A stretch of 64,000 nucleotides of DNA from Rhodoferax sp. WC2427 (lineage in GTDB: Bacteria > Pseudomonadota > Gammaproteobacteria > Burkholderiales > Burkholderiaceae_C). The translations under genes and the position numbers were made by a program. The notes beneath the pieces were generated by a model. The model made no database searches, was not told the DNA's origin, and saw only the letters and a program-made list of their open reading frames with translations. This document shows positions 700-9,164 of the stretch, one piece after another; position 1 is the first letter of the stretch; each line of letters opens with the position of its first letter. The DNA lies in assembly GCF_040822085.1 (NCBI RefSeq), contig NZ_CP162006.1:2852001-2916000 (forward strand), written 5' to 3'.

Positions 700-3591
700 T
701 CAGGACAAATAGTGCAACGCCACGTTGAAGTCGAAATCATTCAGCGCCTGTTCAATCTGCGGCGCTGCGGGGAACTGCTGCTGCAGCAGACTGCGGTGCG
801 TGTTCCACAGGTCGACGGCGGCACTGTCGTCTTGCCCGAGCAGGCTTTTGAGTTCCTCCACGACCTCCTTCACCCTCTCGGGGTCTGCGCCGTGGCCCTC
901 TGGCAGCGGTGGGTGGGCGTCGTCCGTTTGCGCGAAACCCGGGCTGGCCTGCAGCGCCTGGATGAGTGATGCCAGACAGGCATCGGCCTGCGCCAGTGCG
1001 GACGCCAGGTCGCCATCTTGCGGCGCCTGCGGTTGGCGCACCCGGTTCTCTACCTGCTCGGCCAGTGCGGCCAGACGCAATGCGCCCACATTGGCGGCCA
1101 CACTGCGCAGGGTGTGGGCAATGCGTTCGGCCGTGCCAGGGTCGCCAGCGTTGAGTGCCTCTTGGGCCCGTTGCACGGCGTCGGCCTGGCTGGCTACAAA
1201 CTTGCGCAGCATGGTGGCATAGAACGTGGGTTTGCCGGAGGTGCGGCGCAGCCCCACATCGACATCCAGCCCGTCAACGGTGCGCAGCGCCTGCATCAGC
1301 GCATCGGTGCTGGCGTCGGGCGGTGCGGTACCGGCTGGCGGGAAGCCAGGCGCCAGGGCGATGGCGGGTTTTGCAACCGGCCCCAGCCCGGGCCGGGATT
1401 GGACCCACACCAGAAGCGCTTTCCAGAGCTCGCTTTGGTTGATGGGCTTGGTCACCACATCGTTCATACCTGCGGCCATGCACAGGTCGCGGTCGGCCTT
1501 CATGGCGTTGGCGGTCATTGCCACAATCGGCAGCGCCTGGGCAGAGTGGCTCTGGCGAATGCTGCGCGTGGCGCTGGGGCCGTCCATCACGGGCATCTGC
1601 ATATCCATCAGCACGATGTCGTACGGCAGGCCCTCGGCAGTGCGGGCATGGACCTTAGCCACGGCCACCTGGCCGTTTTCGGCCACTTCGACCTCGAACC
1701 CAGCCCCCTGCAAAATTTCGCAGGCCACTTGCTGGTTGATTTCGTTGTCTTCCACCAGCAGAATGCGCGCGCCCTGGATGCGAACCATCTCGAGCAGCAA
1801 GGCATCGTTGTCGCGCAACTGCGGGCTTGTGTCAGACGGCTGCGCCGTGTAGCCCATGACCTGCATCATGGTGTTGACCAGCAAAGAGCAATTGATGGGC
1901 TTGCTCAGCACGTAGTCCACCCCCAAGGACTGCGCGCGCTGCACCAGCTCCTGGCGGCGGTGCGCGGTCACCATGATCAGGTGGGGCGGCCTGGGCAGCG
2001 CCATGGCCTGTATGGCCGACACAGCTTCCAATCCGTTCATGATGGGCATCAGCCAGTCCATCAGCACAAAGTCGAAGGGTTCTGCCGTGGCGTGGCGCAA
2101 CGCGTGCAGCGCGGCCTCCCCGGAATGCACACAGCGCACCGAGAAACCAATGGCCTGCATCATCTCTGCCAGCACCATGGCGGCCGATTCGTTATCGTCC
2201 ACCACCAAAACCTTGCGGCCATACAGTTCGCTGGGCGGTTGGGCCACCACTTTTTCTGCATCGGCAATGCCCAGGCGCGCACTGAACCAAAAGGTGGAAC
2301 CCTGCCCGTACACGCTGCGCACCCCCACGTCGCCGCCCATGGCCTGCGCCAGACTTTTGCTGATGGCCAAACCCAGCCCGGTGCCGCCGTATTGCCGGGT
2401 GATCGAGGAATCGGCCTGCTCAAAGCTCTTGAACAAGCGGCCTATTTGCTCCTCGGTCAAACCAATGCCGGTGTCGGACACCGAAAAAACCACCACGGCC
2501 TCGGTGGCCGTGCATTCCTGCAGGGTGATCGACAGTTTGATTTCACCTTTGACGGTGAACTTCAGCGCATTGTTGGCGTAGTTGATCAAAATCTGGCCAA
2601 TGCGCAGCGGGTCGCCCAGCAGCATTTTGGGCAGATGGGGATCGAAGTCGCACAGCAGTTCCAGCTCTTTTTCTTCCACCCTTTGGCTCAACAGATTGAC
2701 CAGATTTTCAATCACCGGCTCCAGGCTGAATGGCACGGCCTCTATTTCCAGCTTGCCAGATTCTATTTTAGAAAAATCCAGAATATCATTGATAATACCC
2801 AGAAGATGCTCGCCCGATTTATTGATCTTGGTTAAATAATCGCGCGTGCGCAGGTCCAGCTCATTTTTCAATGCCAAACCAGACAGCCCAATGATGGCAT
2901 TCATGGGCGTTCTGATTTCATGGCTCATATTGGCCAGAAACTGGCTTTTGATCTCGCTCAGCTTGAGGGCCTCGGCACGGGACTCTTCCAGAGCCAGGTC
3001 GCTGATCGATTTTGCGAATTGAAACAGAATGGCCAATATGCCGCAGACCAGGGTAATCCCCAGGTTGGCGGCCAGCGCCAGCCAATAGCTGTCGCGCGGG
3101 GCAAAGGGCGGAAATGCAACCCAGTGGTAGGTGCCGGCCAGATAAAACAAAACCGTGGTACCCAATGCCAGCGCGATCGAAATAACCCCACCATTCACCC
3201 CGAACACAAAAATGGATACCAGAGGGAAGATCGCCATCCACACGGCATTGGCGTGGTCTACCCTTCCGCCAAAGGTCCAGATGGTGAGGGTAAAGCAGAA
3301 ATACACATTACCGGCGGCGGCCCATCGGGCCAGTTTCAGGGCACCAAAGCGCCGGATCAGCGTCGATGCCACCAACGCAACGGCCACGTTGCCGCACACA
3401 ATCTGGGCCAAGAATATATTATTCTGAAGGTAATATTCCAAAATAAAGAGTGGCGCAACCAAAATATAGGCAACCAGCGCAGCCACCACATTTCTGGCCT
3501 GGTTTCTTTGCTCATTTTCAGGCCAATCCGTCGGGATAAACAGGTCGAGAAAATTACGTAACAACAAAAAAATCTTGACTGTATTACGCAT
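700..3591 (-). CDS. Hybrid sensor histidine kinase with two receiver domains and an Hpt domain
   Basis: 963 residues. Residues about 35-192 form five or six membrane segments with almost no periplasmic loop, an MHYT/MASE-like integral sensor whose ligand I cannot name. A dimerisation/phosphoacceptor helix follows with His at about 224 ([19 protein letters not shown]). Next come a HATPase domain ([20 protein letters not shown]), two receiver domains (phosphoacceptor Asp in [12 protein letters not shown] and [12 protein letters not shown]) and a C-terminal Hpt helix with His about 826 ([13 protein letters not shown]). This is a complete internal phosphorelay of the BarA/TorS type. No output regulator is adjacent, so the final receiver is encoded elsewhere. 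The gene is preceded by an AT-rich leader with an inverted repeat. Confidence 0.92.
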
Positions 3592-4056
3592 ACCTATATT
3601 TCATTCAATATATTCAAAAATTGAAATAGCCCAATTGAAATCAACCCACCGCCTGCAAGACCCCACCAAAAACAAAATCGAGGCAACGCACCAAACTCCA
3701 AACCCATTTGAATATATTGCGACTTTCAACGCGATCGGCTGGCCTGGCTTCTGGTCGGTAGCGCGGCGACCGCCGCTGCATTTGCCGTTGGGCGCGCCTC
3801 ATGTTACTGAGTTGAAAGCAATTGTTTAATTTTGTTACTTTACGCCAACTTGCGCGGAAGTCCATGCAACTGCCTAAAAACCCGGCAGCCGGATTCGATC
3901 ACCGCCCGCCGCGTGGGCAAGCCCAGGCTGGGGTGTGTGGTGCCATGGATGGGGTGGCCCCCGGCGCGGTCCAGGGCCAGGACCTGCAACACCGCATTTG
4001 CTATGGTTTATAGAGCTGCCTACGCTTGTTTGATCGGCGCCAACAGCCCATTTCGC
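3592..4056 (-). promoter_or_regulatory. AT-rich upstream region of the hybrid kinase with 12-bp inverted repeat
   Basis: No gene is seen in these 465 bases. The part nearest the kinase start is markedly AT-rich against the GC-rich background. It carries a perfect inverted repeat, CAATATATTCAA at 3606-3617 and TTGAATATATTG at 3708-3719, plus several extra TTGAA/TTCAA half-sites between them. It is probably the kinase promoter with operator half-sites; the cognate regulator is unknown. The distal end (3995-4054) is a copy of the palindromic repeat. Confidence 0.4.
3995..4054. repeat. Comamonad palindromic repeat, degenerate copy
   Basis: Blocks TTGCTATGGTTTATAGAGCT, GCCTACGCTTGTTTGATCGG and CAACAGCCCATTT match the order of the family. 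It ends two bases from the stop of the ATP-grasp gene. Confidence 0.6.
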
Positions 4057-4959
4057 TCAAGCCCCCATCAACAACTCCGCCAGCGCGGCCGCGATCGGCA
4101 GCCCGCTCTCCACCTCAAAGTAGCTGAAGGCCGGCATGGGGTTGACCTCGAAGCACACGTACTCGCCGTCGGGGCGCAGGCGCAGGTCAATACCACTCAG
4201 GGGCAGGCCCATGGCGTGGGACATGGCAATGCAACGGGCGGCAACCGTGGGGGGGAGCGTGGTGGCAACCACCTGGGCGGCCGCGCCGCTGCGGTGGGCG
4301 TACCGGTAGTCGGTGGCGGTGCTGGTGATCTCGGCGGCCAGGGCCTGCTGGCCCACCACATGCACCCGCACATCCACCCCCGGCACATGGGCCTGGAACT
4401 GGGTGGGCAGCTGGGCCAGGCGGTGCATGCGCGAGAGCCAGGTGTCGTCCAGCTCGGTCACGATGGAGCGGATGCCGCTGACCGACTTGAACACCACCCG
4501 GCCATGGATTTTGTGGAATGCACGCACCTCGGCCGCGTCAGAGGTTACCAGCGTGGGCGGCACCAGAAATCCGGCTTCTCCGATCCACTGGGCCTGCAGC
4601 GGCTTGGACGCATTGGCCTGCATGGCGGCCGGGCGGCTGACGACGCAGGCCGGGGCCACGTCCAGCCACTCCACCAGGTGCCGGTGCAGTTGCAGGGCCT
4701 GCTTTTGCGCGGGCTCGGGCAGGCTGTCCACGGCGGGCTCCAGCGGGCGGGCATAGACAGCGCGGATGTCGGCCAGCGCGGTGCACACGCCGTCCAGTAC
4801 CAGCTCGCCCGCCAGGCCCTGCGGCCCCACCTGGATGTCCAAATGGGACTGGTGCAGCCGGGCAATGTCCAGCAGTTGAAAGCTTGCGCCCGCGCGGTGC
4901 AGCGCGGCCACCAGGTGCTCGATGGGCGGGTCATCGCCCTGGCCGTAGACGAGGATCAT
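4057..4959 (-). CDS. ATP-grasp ligase with pre-ATP-grasp N-terminus (RimK/MvdD-like)
   Basis: 300 residues. Residues about 1-120 look like a pre-ATP-grasp substrate domain. The ATP-grasp fold follows: a strand with the adenine-site lysine (GRVVFKSVSGIRSI) and the metal-binding C-terminal motif CFEVNPMPAFSYFE, where E and N ligate Mg. GIDLRLRPDGEYVCFEVNP is typical of carboxylate-amine ligases that modify proteins or peptides (RimK, graspetide cyclases). The start overlaps the preceding stop by 4 nt (ATGA), so it is translationally coupled to the degenerate partner (4956-5738) and, through it, to the M6 protease. The substrate is unknown; peptide or protein side-chain ligation is inferred from fold and context only. 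Confidence 0.8.
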   Translation of the reverse strand: MILVYGQGDDPPIEHLVAALHRAGASFQLLDIARLHQSHLDIQVGPQGLAGELVLDGVCTALADIRAVYARPLEPAVDSLPEPAQKQALQLHRHLVEWLDVAPACVVSRPAAMQANASKPLQAQWIGEAGFLVPPTLVTSDAAEVRAFHKIHGRVVFKSVSGIRSIVTELDDTWLSRMHRLAQLPTQFQAHVPGVDVRVHVVGQQALAAEITSTATDYRYAHRSGAAAQVVATTLPPTVAARCIAMSHAMGLPLSGIDLRLRPDGEYVCFEVNPMPAFSYFEVESGLPIAAALAELLMGA

Positions 4960-5738
4960 GCGGCTTCTTCGACCAGGGTGCGTTCGGCCAGGTCCGCAAG
5001 GCAGCGAGCCACCGCGTCAATGTCTTCCAGGTCGCTGAGTGCGGGGTGCGGGCTGACATCGACCAGCACGGCCCCCGCCGCACCGCGCTGGAAGCGGAAC
5101 TCCAGCAGCTTGAAGCCCAGGTTTTGCGCAGTGGCCACGCAGGCCACGCCCAGCCGCCTGGCCAGGACGCCGGTGGTCAGCGTGCCGGCCACCAGCACGG
5201 TGGCGTCCCAGGACGGGGGGACCGCCAAGGCACTTTGCTCCGCCAATGGCAGGCCGCAGCGGGCGGCTGCACTGGCCCAGTGCAGCAGGGGCAGCTGCGG
5301 GGTCAGCCAGGGCTGGCCGCGCAACGGCTGCACCACGCAGCCGCCACAGGCGGCCAGCCAGCTCAGTACCAGGGCTTGCAGCTCCATGGCGGCGTAGTCG
5401 CGGTCTTTGGGGGGGGCCTGGCTGAACTGCGGCAGGGGCAGGTGCTGGATGCGGTTGAACACGGCGCGGATCTGCGTGCTGTGCAGCGCCGGGCGGCCCG
5501 GCAGCACCAGGCGGGTGCGGGCCACGCCGTGCGCATCCACGGTGTGAGACCACGCGGCCAGCCCCAGGCTTTCAGGGCGCACCGTCCATACCTCCACCGG
5601 GGCCCCGGCGAGCAGGCTGCGCACCGAGGCGGCCACCGAGGCTGCACCGGCATCGCTGGCATGGGCCAGTACCAGGATGACGCCAGGGGCCTCCCCGGTG
5701 CCGGGGAGCTCACGCGGTGGGTTCATCAAGGTATTCAT
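4956..5738 (-). CDS. Degenerate ATP-grasp-like partner protein
   Basis: 260 residues, no named family recognised. It resembles its downstream neighbour in two places. The middle (IRAVFNRIQHLPLPQFSQA, then DRDYAAMELQALVLSWLAAC) parallels that protein's pre-ATP-grasp segment (IRAVYARPLEP..., LQLHRHLVEWLDVAPACVV). The C-terminus (LGFKLLEFRF...VLVDVSPHPALS) parallels its GIDLRL...CFEVNPMPAF motif, with the metal-binding Glu/Asn replaced (DVSPHP for EVNPMP). The ATP-binding core between the two looks shortened and no nucleotide lysine motif is visible. It is probably a catalytically dead paralogue forming a complex with the active ligase; that is inference. ATGA overlaps at both ends couple it to its neighbours. 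Confidence 0.6.
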   Translation of the reverse strand: MNTLMNPPRELPGTGEAPGVILVLAHASDAGAASVAASVRSLLAGAPVEVWTVRPESLGLAAWSHTVDAHGVARTRLVLPGRPALHSTQIRAVFNRIQHLPLPQFSQAPPKDRDYAAMELQALVLSWLAACGGCVVQPLRGQPWLTPQLPLLHWASAAARCGLPLAEQSALAVPPSWDATVLVAGTLTTGVLARRLGVACVATAQNLGFKLLEFRFQRGAAGAVLVDVSPHPALSDLEDIDAVARCLADLAERTLVEEAA

Positions 5739-7642
5739 CGGGGCACGGGCGCGTCAAAGGCCCGTTTCGCGTCGCGGTCCCCGGCGGCCATGCGTTGTTG
5801 CAGGTCGCTGCCGTCGTCGTAGGCCGGGCCACCCACCAGGTCCGGGCGCAGGCTGGCGTCGATGAAGGGCTGGGCCATGCCCCGGGCTTCGCCACCATCG
5901 GCAACACCACCGGACGGGCTCGCGGCAAACGCCCGCGCACCCACCATGGCCTCCAGCATCTGCAGCCGGGCTTCCAAGTCAGACAGCACCACGTCCAGGT
6001 GGCTGGGGTCGGCCACCGGGGCGGCGCGCACAACGCGGTGCTCCAGCATGTCCTTGCGGTCTTTGACGATTTCCTTGGCCACCTCTTTGGCGGTTTCCTT
6101 GGCGGTTTCTTTGGCTATGTCCTTCTGGATTTCCTTGCCCTCCTTGGCGGTTTCCTTGGCCAGCTCCTTGCCCTCCTTGCGCAGGTCTTTGCGGTCTTTG
6201 ACCAGCGACTTGGCGCTGCAGCGCACGCCCAGCGTGGCCGCCATGGTGGGGCCGGAGGCGGAAATAGCGGTGACCGACACGCAGGTATTCACCCCCGCAT
6301 ACGACCTGGAATTGGGCGTGGTGGTGGCGCTGAAGGCGGTTTTGGCCGCAGCCCCGGGGAACGGGTCGCCGCTATCGCCCTGGTCGCCAAAGCTGCCGGC
6401 CGGGTGGCTGGCATCCAGCTCGCGCAGGCCGTCGGCCTGGACCAGGGCCACCTTGTAGTGGCTCTCGTCGCTGTTGCCAGACTGGGTTTCATCGATGTGC
6501 CAGACCAGCAGGCCGGCGCCGGGCAGTTGCGCATCAAAGCCGCTGCGCTGGCGGTTCTCCAGCAAAAAATACTCGCTGCCGCCCGCGCCGTTCTTCCACA
6601 GGCGGTGCACGGTGTGGCTGGTTTTGACATCGGGCAGCGACACCGTGCCGCTGGTGGTGACGTTGGTGGTGCCCACCCAGCCCTGGTTGACCTTGCACCA
6701 GGCCGAGGGGTGGGCCGGAATGTCGCCGCCGCCATTCCACGAGCCGCCCGACATCAGGCACCAGTCGCCAATGCCCTCGGAGGTGCCGTCGGTGTCGTAC
6801 AGGTCGGGAAAGCCAAACAGCAAATGCCCCAGCTCATGCGCACACACGCCCAGCCGGGCATCTTCGGGCACGGTGAGGTAGGCGTAGATCTGCTTGCCGT
6901 CGGCGGGCATGGCCGCAGGCAGCACGTGCTTGTGCGACCAGATGTCGCCGGCATTACCGGTTTGCTCGCCGCCGCGCCCGGCGTGCACCACGATGAAGGC
7001 ATCCACAAAGCCATTGCCGTCGTTGTCATACAGGCCAAAGTTGACCGCCGGGTTGGCCGCCACGGCCGCATCCTTGGCCATGATGTTGGCCCGGAACGCG
7101 CCGCCACCCCGGCTGATGCCGAAGTTGTGGTTGGCGTACCAGGCCAGGGTCTGCGGCAGGGTGTAGGGGCCCACCACCTCGCCCACGATGTCTACCAGGC
7201 CGCCGGTGACCTCCTGGTAATACTCTTTCACGCTACCGTGGGGCAGCACGCCGCTGGAGAAGAACAGGTCACGGTAGTGCTGCGCCGTCTGCACCATGGC
7301 CTTGTCGCTGAACTGGGCCAGCACCACGATGACCCGCAGCGGGCCGCGCAGGGGGGCCCGGTCGGCGGCGGCATTGCGGATGGCCGACTTGGGCGTGCCC
7401 TCGGGAAACTGGTCGGGCGGGAAAATCACACCATCGTTGAAACCCAGCCGCGTGGGGCTGCGCGCCAGCGTCAGCGCGCTGGCCAGCTCGGCGCTGACGC
7501 TGCCGCGCGCCTTGGCCAGTTCGGCCTTGAGACGGGCCTTGAGCTCGGGGCTGGGGGCGACGGCGCAAAAGTCACTCCACCGGGCGCGCACGCGGCCTGC
7601 GGCGGGGGCATCGCAGCTGCAATGGCTTTGGTATGTCGTCAT
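5735..7642 (-). CDS. M6 family (immune inhibitor A-like) metalloprotease with Lys/Glu repeat tail
   Basis: 635 residues. The zinc motif HELGHLLFGFPD starts at His269 (HExxHxxxGxxD, the M6 signature), followed by LYDTDG and GDWCLMSGGSWNG, the family Met-turn region. Unlike classical secreted M6 proteases it has no N-terminal signal peptide; it begins with a polar Cys-containing segment. The catalytic domain ends near residue 475. Residues about 481-536 are a highly charged stretch of KE, KET and AKE repeats, then a coiled-coil-like helix and a polar tail. The start has AAGGAG 8 nt upstream. It is the first gene of the coupled cassette with the two ATP-grasp-like genes. Cytoplasmic location and a role as partner or substrate of the ligase are inferences. 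Confidence 0.88.
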   Translation of the reverse strand: MTTYQSHCSCDAPAAGRVRARWSDFCAVAPSPELKARLKAELAKARGSVSAELASALTLARSPTRLGFNDGVIFPPDQFPEGTPKSAIRNAAADRAPLRGPLRVIVVLAQFSDKAMVQTAQHYRDLFFSSGVLPHGSVKEYYQEVTGGLVDIVGEVVGPYTLPQTLAWYANHNFGISRGGGAFRANIMAKDAAVAANPAVNFGLYDNDGNGFVDAFIVVHAGRGGEQTGNAGDIWSHKHVLPAAMPADGKQIYAYLTVPEDARLGVCAHELGHLLFGFPDLYDTDGTSEGIGDWCLMSGGSWNGGGDIPAHPSAWCKVNQGWVGTTNVTTSGTVSLPDVKTSHTVHRLWKNGAGGSEYFLLENRQRSGFDAQLPGAGLLVWHIDETQSGNSDESHYKVALVQADGLRELDASHPAGSFGDQGDSGDPFPGAAAKTAFSATTTPNSRSYAGVNTCVSVTAISASGPTMAATLGVRCSAKSLVKDRKDLRKEGKELAKETAKEGKEIQKDIAKETAKETAKEVAKEIVKDRKDMLEHRVVRAAPVADPSHLDVVLSDLEARLQMLEAMVGARAFAASPSGGVADGGEARGMAQPFIDASLRPDLVGGPAYDDGSDLQQRMAAGDRDAKRAFDAPVPR

Positions 7643-7802
7643 GGCATCTCCTTGCGTTGCTGTGGAATGAGTATCAACGCACGGTAGACGCGGCCCGGAG
7701 CACGCTGGCCGTGGTCATCCCCCATTTGGGGGAAAAAGACTTTGGCCGTTCTTGCACTGCTGTGGAGCACCCTGCCCGCCTGGCGCTGTAACAATAAGCC
7801 CC

Positions 7803-9164
7803 ATGACGACCCATCCCGCCCTGACCCCGTCCGCGCTGGCCTCACGCTTCGCCACCGAAACCCAGCGCTTCACCGCCATCCACCCGCGCTCCATCGCCCT
7901 GGCCACCCAGGCCGCGCAGCATTTCCTGTTTGGGGTGCCGCTGCACTGGATGCGCGACTGGCCCAGCCCGGCCAGCCTGTGCGTGCAGCACGCCCAGGGC
8001 GCGCAACTCACCTGCGCCGACGGCCATGTCTACAGCGACTTCTGCCTGGGCGACACCGGCGCCATGTTTGGCCACAGCCCGGCGCCGGTGGCCCAGGCCA
8101 TCGCCCAGCAGGCGGCGCGCGGGCTGACCAGCATGCTGCCCTCGGTACAAACCGCCGAGGTGGGTGCGCTGCTGGCCGCCACCTTTGGCCTGCCGCAGTG
8201 GCAAATGGCCCTGACCGCCAGCGACGCCAACCGCTTTGTGCTGCGCTGGGCGCGGGCCGTGACGCAGCGCCCCCAGTTGCTGGTGTTTGACGGCTGCTAC
8301 CACGGCGCGGTGGACGACACACTGGTAGACCTGCAAGGCCAAGACGGCAAAACCACCGTGCCCCGCCCCTCGGTGCTGGGCAATGTGCACAACCACGCCG
8401 CCTTCACCCGCATCGTGCCCTTCAACGACCTGGCCGCGCTGGAAGCCGCCCTGGCCGACCGCCAGGTGGCCTGCCTGCTGGCCGAGCCCGCGCTGACCAA
8501 CTGCGGTCTGGTGCTGCCAGACCCGGGGTTTTGGCAAGCTGCCCAGGCCCTGTGCCAGCGCTATGGCACCCTGCTGGCGCTGGACGAAACCCACACCTTG
8601 TCCACCGGCTGCGGCGGCTACGCCAAAGTGCACGGCCTGGCCCCCGACCTGCTGGTCATCGGCAAGGCCGTGGCGGGCGGTCTGCCCTGCGCGGTGTATG
8701 GCTTCACCGACGCCCTGGCCCAGCGCATGCGAGACGCCAAACAGGCCGCGCCCGAGGGCCACAGCGGCATTGGCACCACGCTGGCGGGCAATGCGCTCAC
8801 GCTGGCCGCCCTGCACGCCGCCCTGACCCACCTGCACACGCCCGCCACCTACGCCCCCATGCTGGCGCTGGCCGACACGCTGGCGGCGGGCTTGCGGGCC
8901 CAGATTGCCGCCCATGGCCTGGGCTGGACCGTCACCCAGCTCGGTGCCCGCATGGAGCTGCAATTCACCGCCCAGCCGCCGCGCAACGCCGCCGAAGTGC
9001 ACGCCACCAGCCAGCCCGCGCTGGATGCCTTGTTGCACCTGTTTTTGCTGAACCGGGGCGTGCTGCTCACCCCTTTCCACACCATGCTGCTGGTGTCGCC
9101 CGCCACCACGCAGGCCAACGTGCAGCAGATGTTGGACGGGTTGGCGGCTTTTTTGACCCTTTGA
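7803..9164 (+). CDS. Class III PLP-dependent aminotransferase (GSA aminomutase-like)
   Basis: 453 residues. Fold-type I aminotransferase related to glutamate-1-semialdehyde 2,1-aminomutase: GDTGAMFGHSPAPVA near the N-terminus, the cofactor Asp in LLALDETHT, the Schiff-base lysine in VIGKAVAGGLPCAVYG, and GIGTTLAGNALT. The amino-group substrate cannot be read from sequence. Start chosen at ATG 7803 because residues match the family from there; an upstream TTG (7752) would add an unlikely Cys/Pro-rich extension. It is divergent from the M6 cassette across a 160-bp region that must hold both promoters. An EamA exporter and a LysR regulator follow on the same strand, suggesting an amino-acid metabolism/export unit. 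Confidence 0.85.
   Translation: MTTHPALTPSALASRFATETQRFTAIHPRSIALATQAAQHFLFGVPLHWMRDWPSPASLCVQHAQGAQLTCADGHVYSDFCLGDTGAMFGHSPAPVAQAIAQQAARGLTSMLPSVQTAEVGALLAATFGLPQWQMALTASDANRFVLRWARAVTQRPQLLVFDGCYHGAVDDTLVDLQGQDGKTTVPRPSVLGNVHNHAAFTRIVPFNDLAALEAALADRQVACLLAEPALTNCGLVLPDPGFWQAAQALCQRYGTLLALDETHTLSTGCGGYAKVHGLAPDLLVIGKAVAGGLPCAVYGFTDALAQRMRDAKQAAPEGHSGIGTTLAGNALTLAALHAALTHLHTPATYAPMLALADTLAAGLRAQIAAHGLGWTVTQLGARMELQFTAQPPRNAAEVHATSQPALDALLHLFLLNRGVLLTPFHTMLLVSPATTQANVQQMLDGLAAFLTL

Follow-up and report, generated by a model that had tools for sequence, protein, structure and literature searches.

An M6 protease gene coupled to two ATP-grasp genes

We analyzed a 64,000-nucleotide (nt) window of Rhodoferax sp. 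WC2427 (contig NZ_CP162006.1, positions 2,852,001 to 2,916,000), whose minus strand carries, at window positions 4057–7642, genes for an M6-family metalloprotease, a 260-residue protein (hereafter the partner) and an ATP-grasp ligase. According to the list of open reading frames (ORFs), they are transcribed in that order. An earlier note on this DNA, made from the letters alone, described the three same-strand genes as joined by two ATGA overlaps, and the coordinates and the TCAT sites on the forward strand are exactly as described. The note remarked in passing that the cassette may modify the protease itself. It overlooked an element that speaks for this remark: M6 residues 478–604 form a precursor-like repeat tail and a short tag, fused to the C-terminus of the protease. 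The features are listed below.

5735..7642, minus strand: M6-family metalloprotease with tail, 635 residues (ORF; TIGR03296, 249 bits; Peptidase_M6, 84.7 bits; HELGHLLFGFPD)
6497..7327, minus strand: M6 catalytic domain, residues 106–382 (NCBIfam match)
6041..6211, minus strand: K-[DE]-x(1,2) repeat tail, residues 478–534, proposed cross-linked core (15 Lys, 15 acids; alignment of 33 M6 proteins)
5924..6007, minus strand: predicted short helix between repeats and tag, residues 546–573 (low-confidence model; conserved LEARL..LE)
5831..5869, minus strand: C-terminal tag PFIDASLRPDLVG, residues 592–604, proposed recognition element ('follower') (alignment, locus survey)
5735..5738, minus strand: ATGA overlap of M6 stop and partner start (TCAT on the forward strand)
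4956..5738, minus strand: partner, predicted pseudo-graspetide-synthetase, 260 residues, without the segment in which the ligase has K158
4956..4959, minus strand: ATGA overlap of partner stop and ATP-grasp start (TCAT on the forward strand)
4057..4959, minus strand: graspetide-type ATP-grasp ligase, 300 residues, with K158, D196-x-R198, D258, E271 and N273 (NCBIfam, PDB sequence match, alignment)

A conserved repeat tail and tag follow the protease domain

The M6 domain is clear (TIGR03296, E 8e-74; 249 bits, cut-off 110.8), and its HExxHxxxGxxD motif is intact, as the note had stated. The protein also appears to lack a signal peptide, again as noted; no 12-residue Kyte–Doolittle mean within its first 50 residues exceeds 0.61. 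Beyond the domain, K-[DE]-x(1,2) repeats extend over ∼57 residues, followed by the short predicted helix and then the tag. The window's protein runs ∼160 residues beyond its homologue in congener G001, which stops where the tail begins.

We aligned 33 M6 proteins, 21 of them found via the tail itself and 12 otherwise. Tag residues P592, F593, I594, R599, P600, L602 and G604 were invariant in 33 of 33 proteins, and equally so in the 12 not picked through the tail. Conservation of the tag columns equaled that of the catalytic domain (3.66 versus 3.65 bits). In the repeats, the K columns held lysine in 417 of 437 cells and arginine in only 6, while the acid columns held D or E in 407 of 434, with the two freely exchanged (D 175, E 232). 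Values were similar in the 12 rows found otherwise (144/152 Lys, 2 Arg; 139/152 acid). Residues between the pairs vary. That the lysine and acid columns are kept while the spacers vary argues for a conserved chemical pattern and against a mere charged linker.

The repeats also have a direction. In the window's tail an acid directly follows 14 of the 15 lysines, and none directly precedes a lysine. Over 26 carriers of the tail (one without the segment), the residue right after a lysine was an acid 388 times, compared with 140.8 in shuffled tails (z +29.8). Acids were enriched at Lys+4 (224 versus 134.8, z +10.5) and depleted at Lys–4 (z –8.1) in carrier tails relative to shuffles. By its composition, the tail would supply the paired nucleophiles and acids of a graspetide core, and PFIxxxLRPDL resembles a Phh-type recognition motif, C-terminal here and N-terminal in a related locus (L075). 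The graspetide precursor model GRASP_targ was absent from the NCBIfam matches of the M6 protein.

The ligase resembles graspetide synthetases, and the partner is a predicted pseudoenzyme

For the ligase, the best NCBIfam model was TIGR04187 (132.9 bits). Models of the MvdC/MvdD graspetide maturases also scored above the rimK_fam model TIGR00768 (55 of 143.4 bits), all of them below curated cut-offs, so that the curated RimK model is not reached; the Pfam RimK model is passed (34.8 bits, cut-off 21). Graspetide ligases led the PDB matches, the best solved relative by sequence being 7drm (PsnB, 1.7e-23). ATP-grasps from other loci were scanned as well, and in 7 of 7 cases TIGR04187 was again the best match. 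With TIGR04187 below its cut-off, the ATP/Mg and DxR residues of a graspetide synthetase are nonetheless in place, namely K158, D196-x-R198, D258, E271 and N273, to which we assign the roles presumed for the ATP-grasp family (K158 binding ATP). We also take PsnB and ThfB to be members of TIGR04187.

The partner had no Pfam or NCBIfam match up to E 1. Its relation to ATP-grasp, which the earlier note had proposed and on which it had made its reading depend, emerged both by profile and by predicted fold, and DVSPHP, the altered metal motif to which the note had drawn attention, aligns with EVNPMP. Based on its modeled fold, the partner is a predicted pseudo-graspetide-synthetase. These profiles and the predicted fold support the note's view of an active/inactive ATP-grasp pair in a peptide- or protein-modifying system. 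Among 398 Pseudomonadota genomes sampled, only the window's own yielded the partner (1/398); at most six candidates were scored per genome, so relatives may be missed, and no further set for validation was obtained.

The tag marks one clade of ATP-grasp loci

Named genomes were scanned with the ATP-grasp alone, and counts over 80 loci refer to the best 80 of 84. We scored a locus as tagged if a same-strand ORF with F[IV]-x4-RP-x-x lay within 2.6 kb of the ATP-grasp. The tag was present in 31 of 80 loci, compared with 1 of 2,539 minus-strand (opposite-strand) ORFs of the same loci. In an ATP-grasp tree of 83 rows, all 31 tag loci fell on one side of a branch with a Shimodaira–Hasegawa-like approximate likelihood ratio (SH-aLRT) of 99. 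Within that clade the tag was found in 31 of 35 non-orphan loci, versus 0 of 42 loci outside it; the four clade loci without a tag are L054 and L072, on short contigs, and L082 and L083.

Wherever a carrier lies upstream (23 loci), the order is carrier, partner, ligase (23/23), with a 4-nt partner/ligase overlap in 18 and a 4-nt carrier/partner overlap in 12. Seventeen of these partners are rows of our partner alignment (A5) and six match its hidden Markov model. M6 proteases are the carriers, adjacent to the other two genes in this order, in 12 of the 80 loci; these belong to Pseudomonadota and Actinomycetota. The earlier note had made its reading depend on such a co-occurrence. Other carriers include an S8 protease (L073) and immunoglobulin-like, S-layer or DUF6519 proteins (L065, L068–L070), and those of L066, L074, L076 and L077 have no family match. 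The L061 carrier is a 188-residue stand-alone repeat peptide. It has 169 relatives at E 0.001, and the tag lies 21–45 residues from the C-terminus in 117 of the 120 listed.

In the other eight tag loci (L075, L077 and six Nitrospira-type), the tagged ORF is downstream of the ligase. L075 has the usual leader–core order, with the tag N-terminal and K/D/E repeats after it, whereas in the six Nitrospira-type loci a PqqD-like protein (Pfam-tested in one) bears the tag at its N-terminus. A 330-residue ORF beside the PqqD-like protein in these loci (L079–L081, L084–L086) looks like a second ATP-grasp. In L065, the ORF after the ATP-grasp (3087–3881) encodes an eCIS_core protein that is K/D/E-rich over one stretch; together with the DUF6519 carriers of L069 and L070, it raises the possibility of a link to contractile injection systems.

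The earlier note had seen no obvious small precursor gene. None was noticed beside or between the window's genes (ORFs of at least 60 residues; sequence), so that observation stands, but it is no dead end, since the precursor-like element sits on the protease. Relatives L061 and L075 have stand-alone carriers. A stand-alone precursor is no chemical requirement; hence we propose that the cassette works like graspetide biosynthesis, as a variant of it.

A sister clade carries other arrays on other enzymes

Related ligases without this (class I) tag often sit behind other enzymes. A class II regular expression flagged 25 loci as class II only; after removal of L096 and L110 as weak and addition of L119 (unflagged) and L048 (genome G014), the sister-clade set again numbered 25. 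These loci fall within L093–L129, plus L048, and their carriers lie directly before a graspetide-type ATP-grasp. Nineteen of the 25 carriers were scanned for families, giving 7 astacins, 6 M43 proteases, 2 subtilases (S8), 2 trypsins (S1), 1 tyrosinase and 1 without a match. Their tails carry arrays such as PTLKFRDDVPPTLKFRED (KFRDD-type) or KEVRKDP, followed by a C-terminal PFVLSTPHH-like motif. The pattern K..[DE][DE] occurred 84 times in these tails, compared with 4.7 ± 2.2 in shuffled sequence and 0 in the enzyme bodies. It was present in 17 of the 25 carriers, and a KE..KD type in 6 more.

Taken with the tagged clade, these data somewhat favor a natural protein-tailing system that spans phyla. 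Its graspetide ligases would find their targets by C-terminal tags (PFIxxxLRPDL, or PFVLSTPHH-like in the sister clade) and cross-link repeat arrays attached to surface-type proteins or to entire enzymes (M6, astacin, M43, subtilase, trypsin, tyrosinase).

Congeners lacking the protease or the tail

Congeners G003, G005 and G006 retain the partner and the ATP-grasp and have no M6 match; G006 is 71% complete, with no M6 gene between its flanking gene and the pair. In their ATP-grasps K158 is replaced by E, S and T, and two of these enzymes lack other active-site residues as well. In the other 80 rows this position is lysine in 79 and a gap in 1. Thus, in 3 of 3 M6-less congeners, the ligase is changed at what we take to be its ATP-binding lysine, where the carrier is missing. 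Searches of these congeners for an M6 remnant gave a best tblastn match of E 0.30, and upstream of the pair there were only short ORFs with no visible likeness to a small precursor; both candidates were discarded. Loci L042, L043 and L044 are M6-less Rhodoferax-type loci in which the ATP-grasp is altered at key residues but the partner frame is open, so the partner may have another use.

Congener G001, with its untailed M6, has no ATP-grasp or partner match (genome 73% complete). Across eight genomes of the genus, tail-like proteins beyond the cassettes of G000, G002 and G007 gave only matches at E 0.045–0.89; two candidates, L134 and L137, looked spurious on reading. The 398 Pseudomonadota genomes contain 22 M6 loci, and only the window's has repeats and tag. 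Of the other 21, 13 could be followed as far as their stop codon and 7 extended past the end of the fetched sequence; neither repeats nor tag turned up in these 20, and L151 belongs to neither set.

Tailed M6 proteins tend to have a less hydrophobic start: over the first 50 residues, 30 of 33 scored at most 1.38 and three 1.66–1.72, whereas 18 of 20 untailed controls, scored over 120 residues, reached at least 1.71 (the window's M6 over 120 residues is 1.61). The ranges touch and the windows differ, so this loose separation is a hint at most.

A proposed mechanism and its alternatives

We consider it likely that the M6 protease is itself the substrate of the ligase and partner, as an enzyme-appended, C-terminally tagged graspetide array. 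That the tail is the substrate is well supported by sequence. The K-[DE]-x(1,2) tail would be the core and PFIxxxLRPDLxG the recognition element, follower-like instead of an N-terminal leader. We infer that the tag is bound by the enzymes; ligase and coupled pseudo-ATP-grasp probably associate in a complex, in which the latter may help to hold the tagged tail. In keeping with the established chemistry of graspetide synthetases, the ligase would use ATP to phosphorylate Asp/Glu side chains of the tail, and neighboring lysine amines would attack the activated acids, giving Lys–Asp/Glu isopeptide cross-links. The tail would thereby become compact and resistant to proteases, while the enzyme, which has no signal peptide, would otherwise stay active. 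A need for prior ATP-dependent modification in the cytosol could explain why this member of an often secreted family lacks such a peptide. Candidate purposes of the tail are self-protection of the protease, a rigid spacer or anchor, and export. Because non-proteases carry the tail too, self-inhibition of the protease is unlikely as a general role.

Several observations weigh against this proposal. Tag invariance arises partly by selection, as 21 of the 33 M6 proteins were found via the tail, though the 12 others agree. Lys-to-acid spacings other than +4 are enriched as well, and the M6 model is poor (mean predicted local distance difference test score (pLDDT) 57.9, lowest in the tail), giving no structural support for specific pairings. 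The ligase misses the TIGR04187 cut-off (132.9 of 350 bits), as a divergent relative would. Within the tagged clade, L082 and L083 show no tag despite room upstream, L076 has a tag without a dense repeat, and our scan showed no K/D/E repeats in those Nitrospira-type loci whose tag sits on a PqqD-like protein. Neither of the repeat patterns tested occurs in L105 and L128, 2 of the 25 sister-clade carriers. Three Rhodoferax-type M6-less genomes keep the pair without a carrier, with the partner frame open though the ATP-grasp has changed, and the untailed M6 controls are mostly distant relatives.

Three other explanations deserve comparison. The peptidase could be a maturation or supply enzyme, cutting peptides from other proteins for the ATP-grasp, with the tail incidental. 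This proposal and the link to peptidases are in print (in the passages of Makarova 2022 on these ligases, PMC8939145), and among carriers with a family match, peptidases are the most frequent. Yet the same tag and repeats occur on non-peptidases and stand-alone peptides, the sister-clade array occurs on a tyrosinase, the tag is as conserved as the catalytic domain, and the ATP-grasp lysine is lost where the carrier is missing; we regard this explanation as very unlikely. RimK-like glutamylation, in which free amino acids such as Glu are added to the tail or C-terminus with no cross-linking, would fit the Pfam RimK match above cut-off and the RimK-like names in the source annotations. It would not need lysine and acid positions that are both conserved, at ∼1:1, and the ligase prefers the graspetide maturase profile to rimK_fam (132.9 versus 55 bits) and has graspetide ligases at the head of its PDB matches, which makes glutamylation improbable.

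Alternatively, the tail may be a charged single α-helix or spacer, with modification only at the tag or another site. The tail is indeed K/E-rich and charge-balanced, and the low-confidence model has helical stretches at 480–497 and 524–534. But AlphaFold pLDDT is ∼28–42 over residues 481–550, with no confident helix, arginine seldom replaces lysine, D is nearly as frequent as E, and acids are depleted at Lys–4 and enriched at Lys+4. We think a mere helix or spacer about as improbable as glutamylation, and favor the cross-linked tail.

Surroundings of the cassette and other loci

Downstream of the cassette, the ORF at 700–3591 (minus strand) is hybrid histidine kinase-like by reading of the ORF list. 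Upstream, the diverging ORF at 7752–9164 (plus strand) is aminotransferase-like by reading, and an aminotransferase-like ORF flanks the cassette in relatives too. The repeat at 3995–4054 to which the earlier note pointed does exist, with four matches in its own genome, of which one is the repeat itself and three are partial, but it is a minor feature, and nothing was seen that ties it to the cassette. The note's suggestion of a defence module found no support: PADLOC models gave no defence match for the cassette, though a new system could escape such models.

Outside the tagged clade, L087 and L091 have small GEEG-repeat precursors, presumably plesiocin-like. Locus L049 (5035–7471), from another genus of the same family, has two tandem ATP-grasp-like ORFs and a microviridin-like precursor (PFFARFLE leader, KYPSDGDDHL cores). 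Four Streptomyces plasmid records with tgmB were also seen.

Comparison with known systems

Among the closest described systems are branches 7 and 8 of Makarova 2022 (PMC8939145). As presented in the passages on these branches, both have peptidases of unrelated families and no small precursor identified, the peptidases being suggested as peptide suppliers, and branch 8 has a truncated, inactive ATP-grasp beside the ligase. In the window, too, a peptidase and a predicted inactive ATP-grasp lie beside the ligase. Here, however, the proposed precursor is the tail of the peptidase, and the partner lacks an internal segment and does not plainly consist of two N-terminal domains. We infer that the tagged clade corresponds to branch 8 and the sister clade to branch 7, and that the tails are probably the precursors of both. 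If so, the gap in two published precursor-less ligase branches becomes directly testable.

Compared with the graspetides made by TIGR04187 enzymes (plesiocin/PsnB, fuscimiditide/ThfB, corallotide/CorB), the cassette shares the ligase family and fold, a Phh-type motif and repeated nucleophile/acid cores. In the case of corallotide, a large precursor with repeats acquires KxxxD isopeptides through the action of a TIGR04187 enzyme (PMC13097080). The window's array differs in being the tail of a large enzyme, with a C-terminal tag and a pseudo-ATP-grasp coupled to the ligase. Group 32 graspetides (Carter 2026, PMC13097080), with 'Diverse families of neighboring proteases', are similar by description only, and the lines on them read the proteases as maturation or resistance genes. 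In rosaritide biosynthesis, as outlined in the same source, the ligase MirB requires a co-purifying partner, MirC, but MirC is SurA-like with a possible recognition element (RRE) and not a pseudo-ATP-grasp. No description of these tags or of enzyme-appended arrays was found in the literature searched, though an earlier mention in Iyer 2009 is possible; one literature match, to titin, reflected a short word shared by chance.

If the tails are cross-linked as proposed, the chemistry of ribosomally synthesized and post-translationally modified peptides (RiPPs) would reach from small peptides to whole enzymes, and graspetides would include, besides small molecules, stapled domains within large proteins that are produced with no signal peptide. 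The relevant part of PMC13003496 reports that an engineered graspetide with a C-terminal leader still works, and protein cyclization by ThfB has been engineered (PMC13003496, PMC12291112, in the parts that concern it). The present loci would be the natural case, and a natural C-terminal tag with its pseudoenzyme would be a protein-stapling tool.

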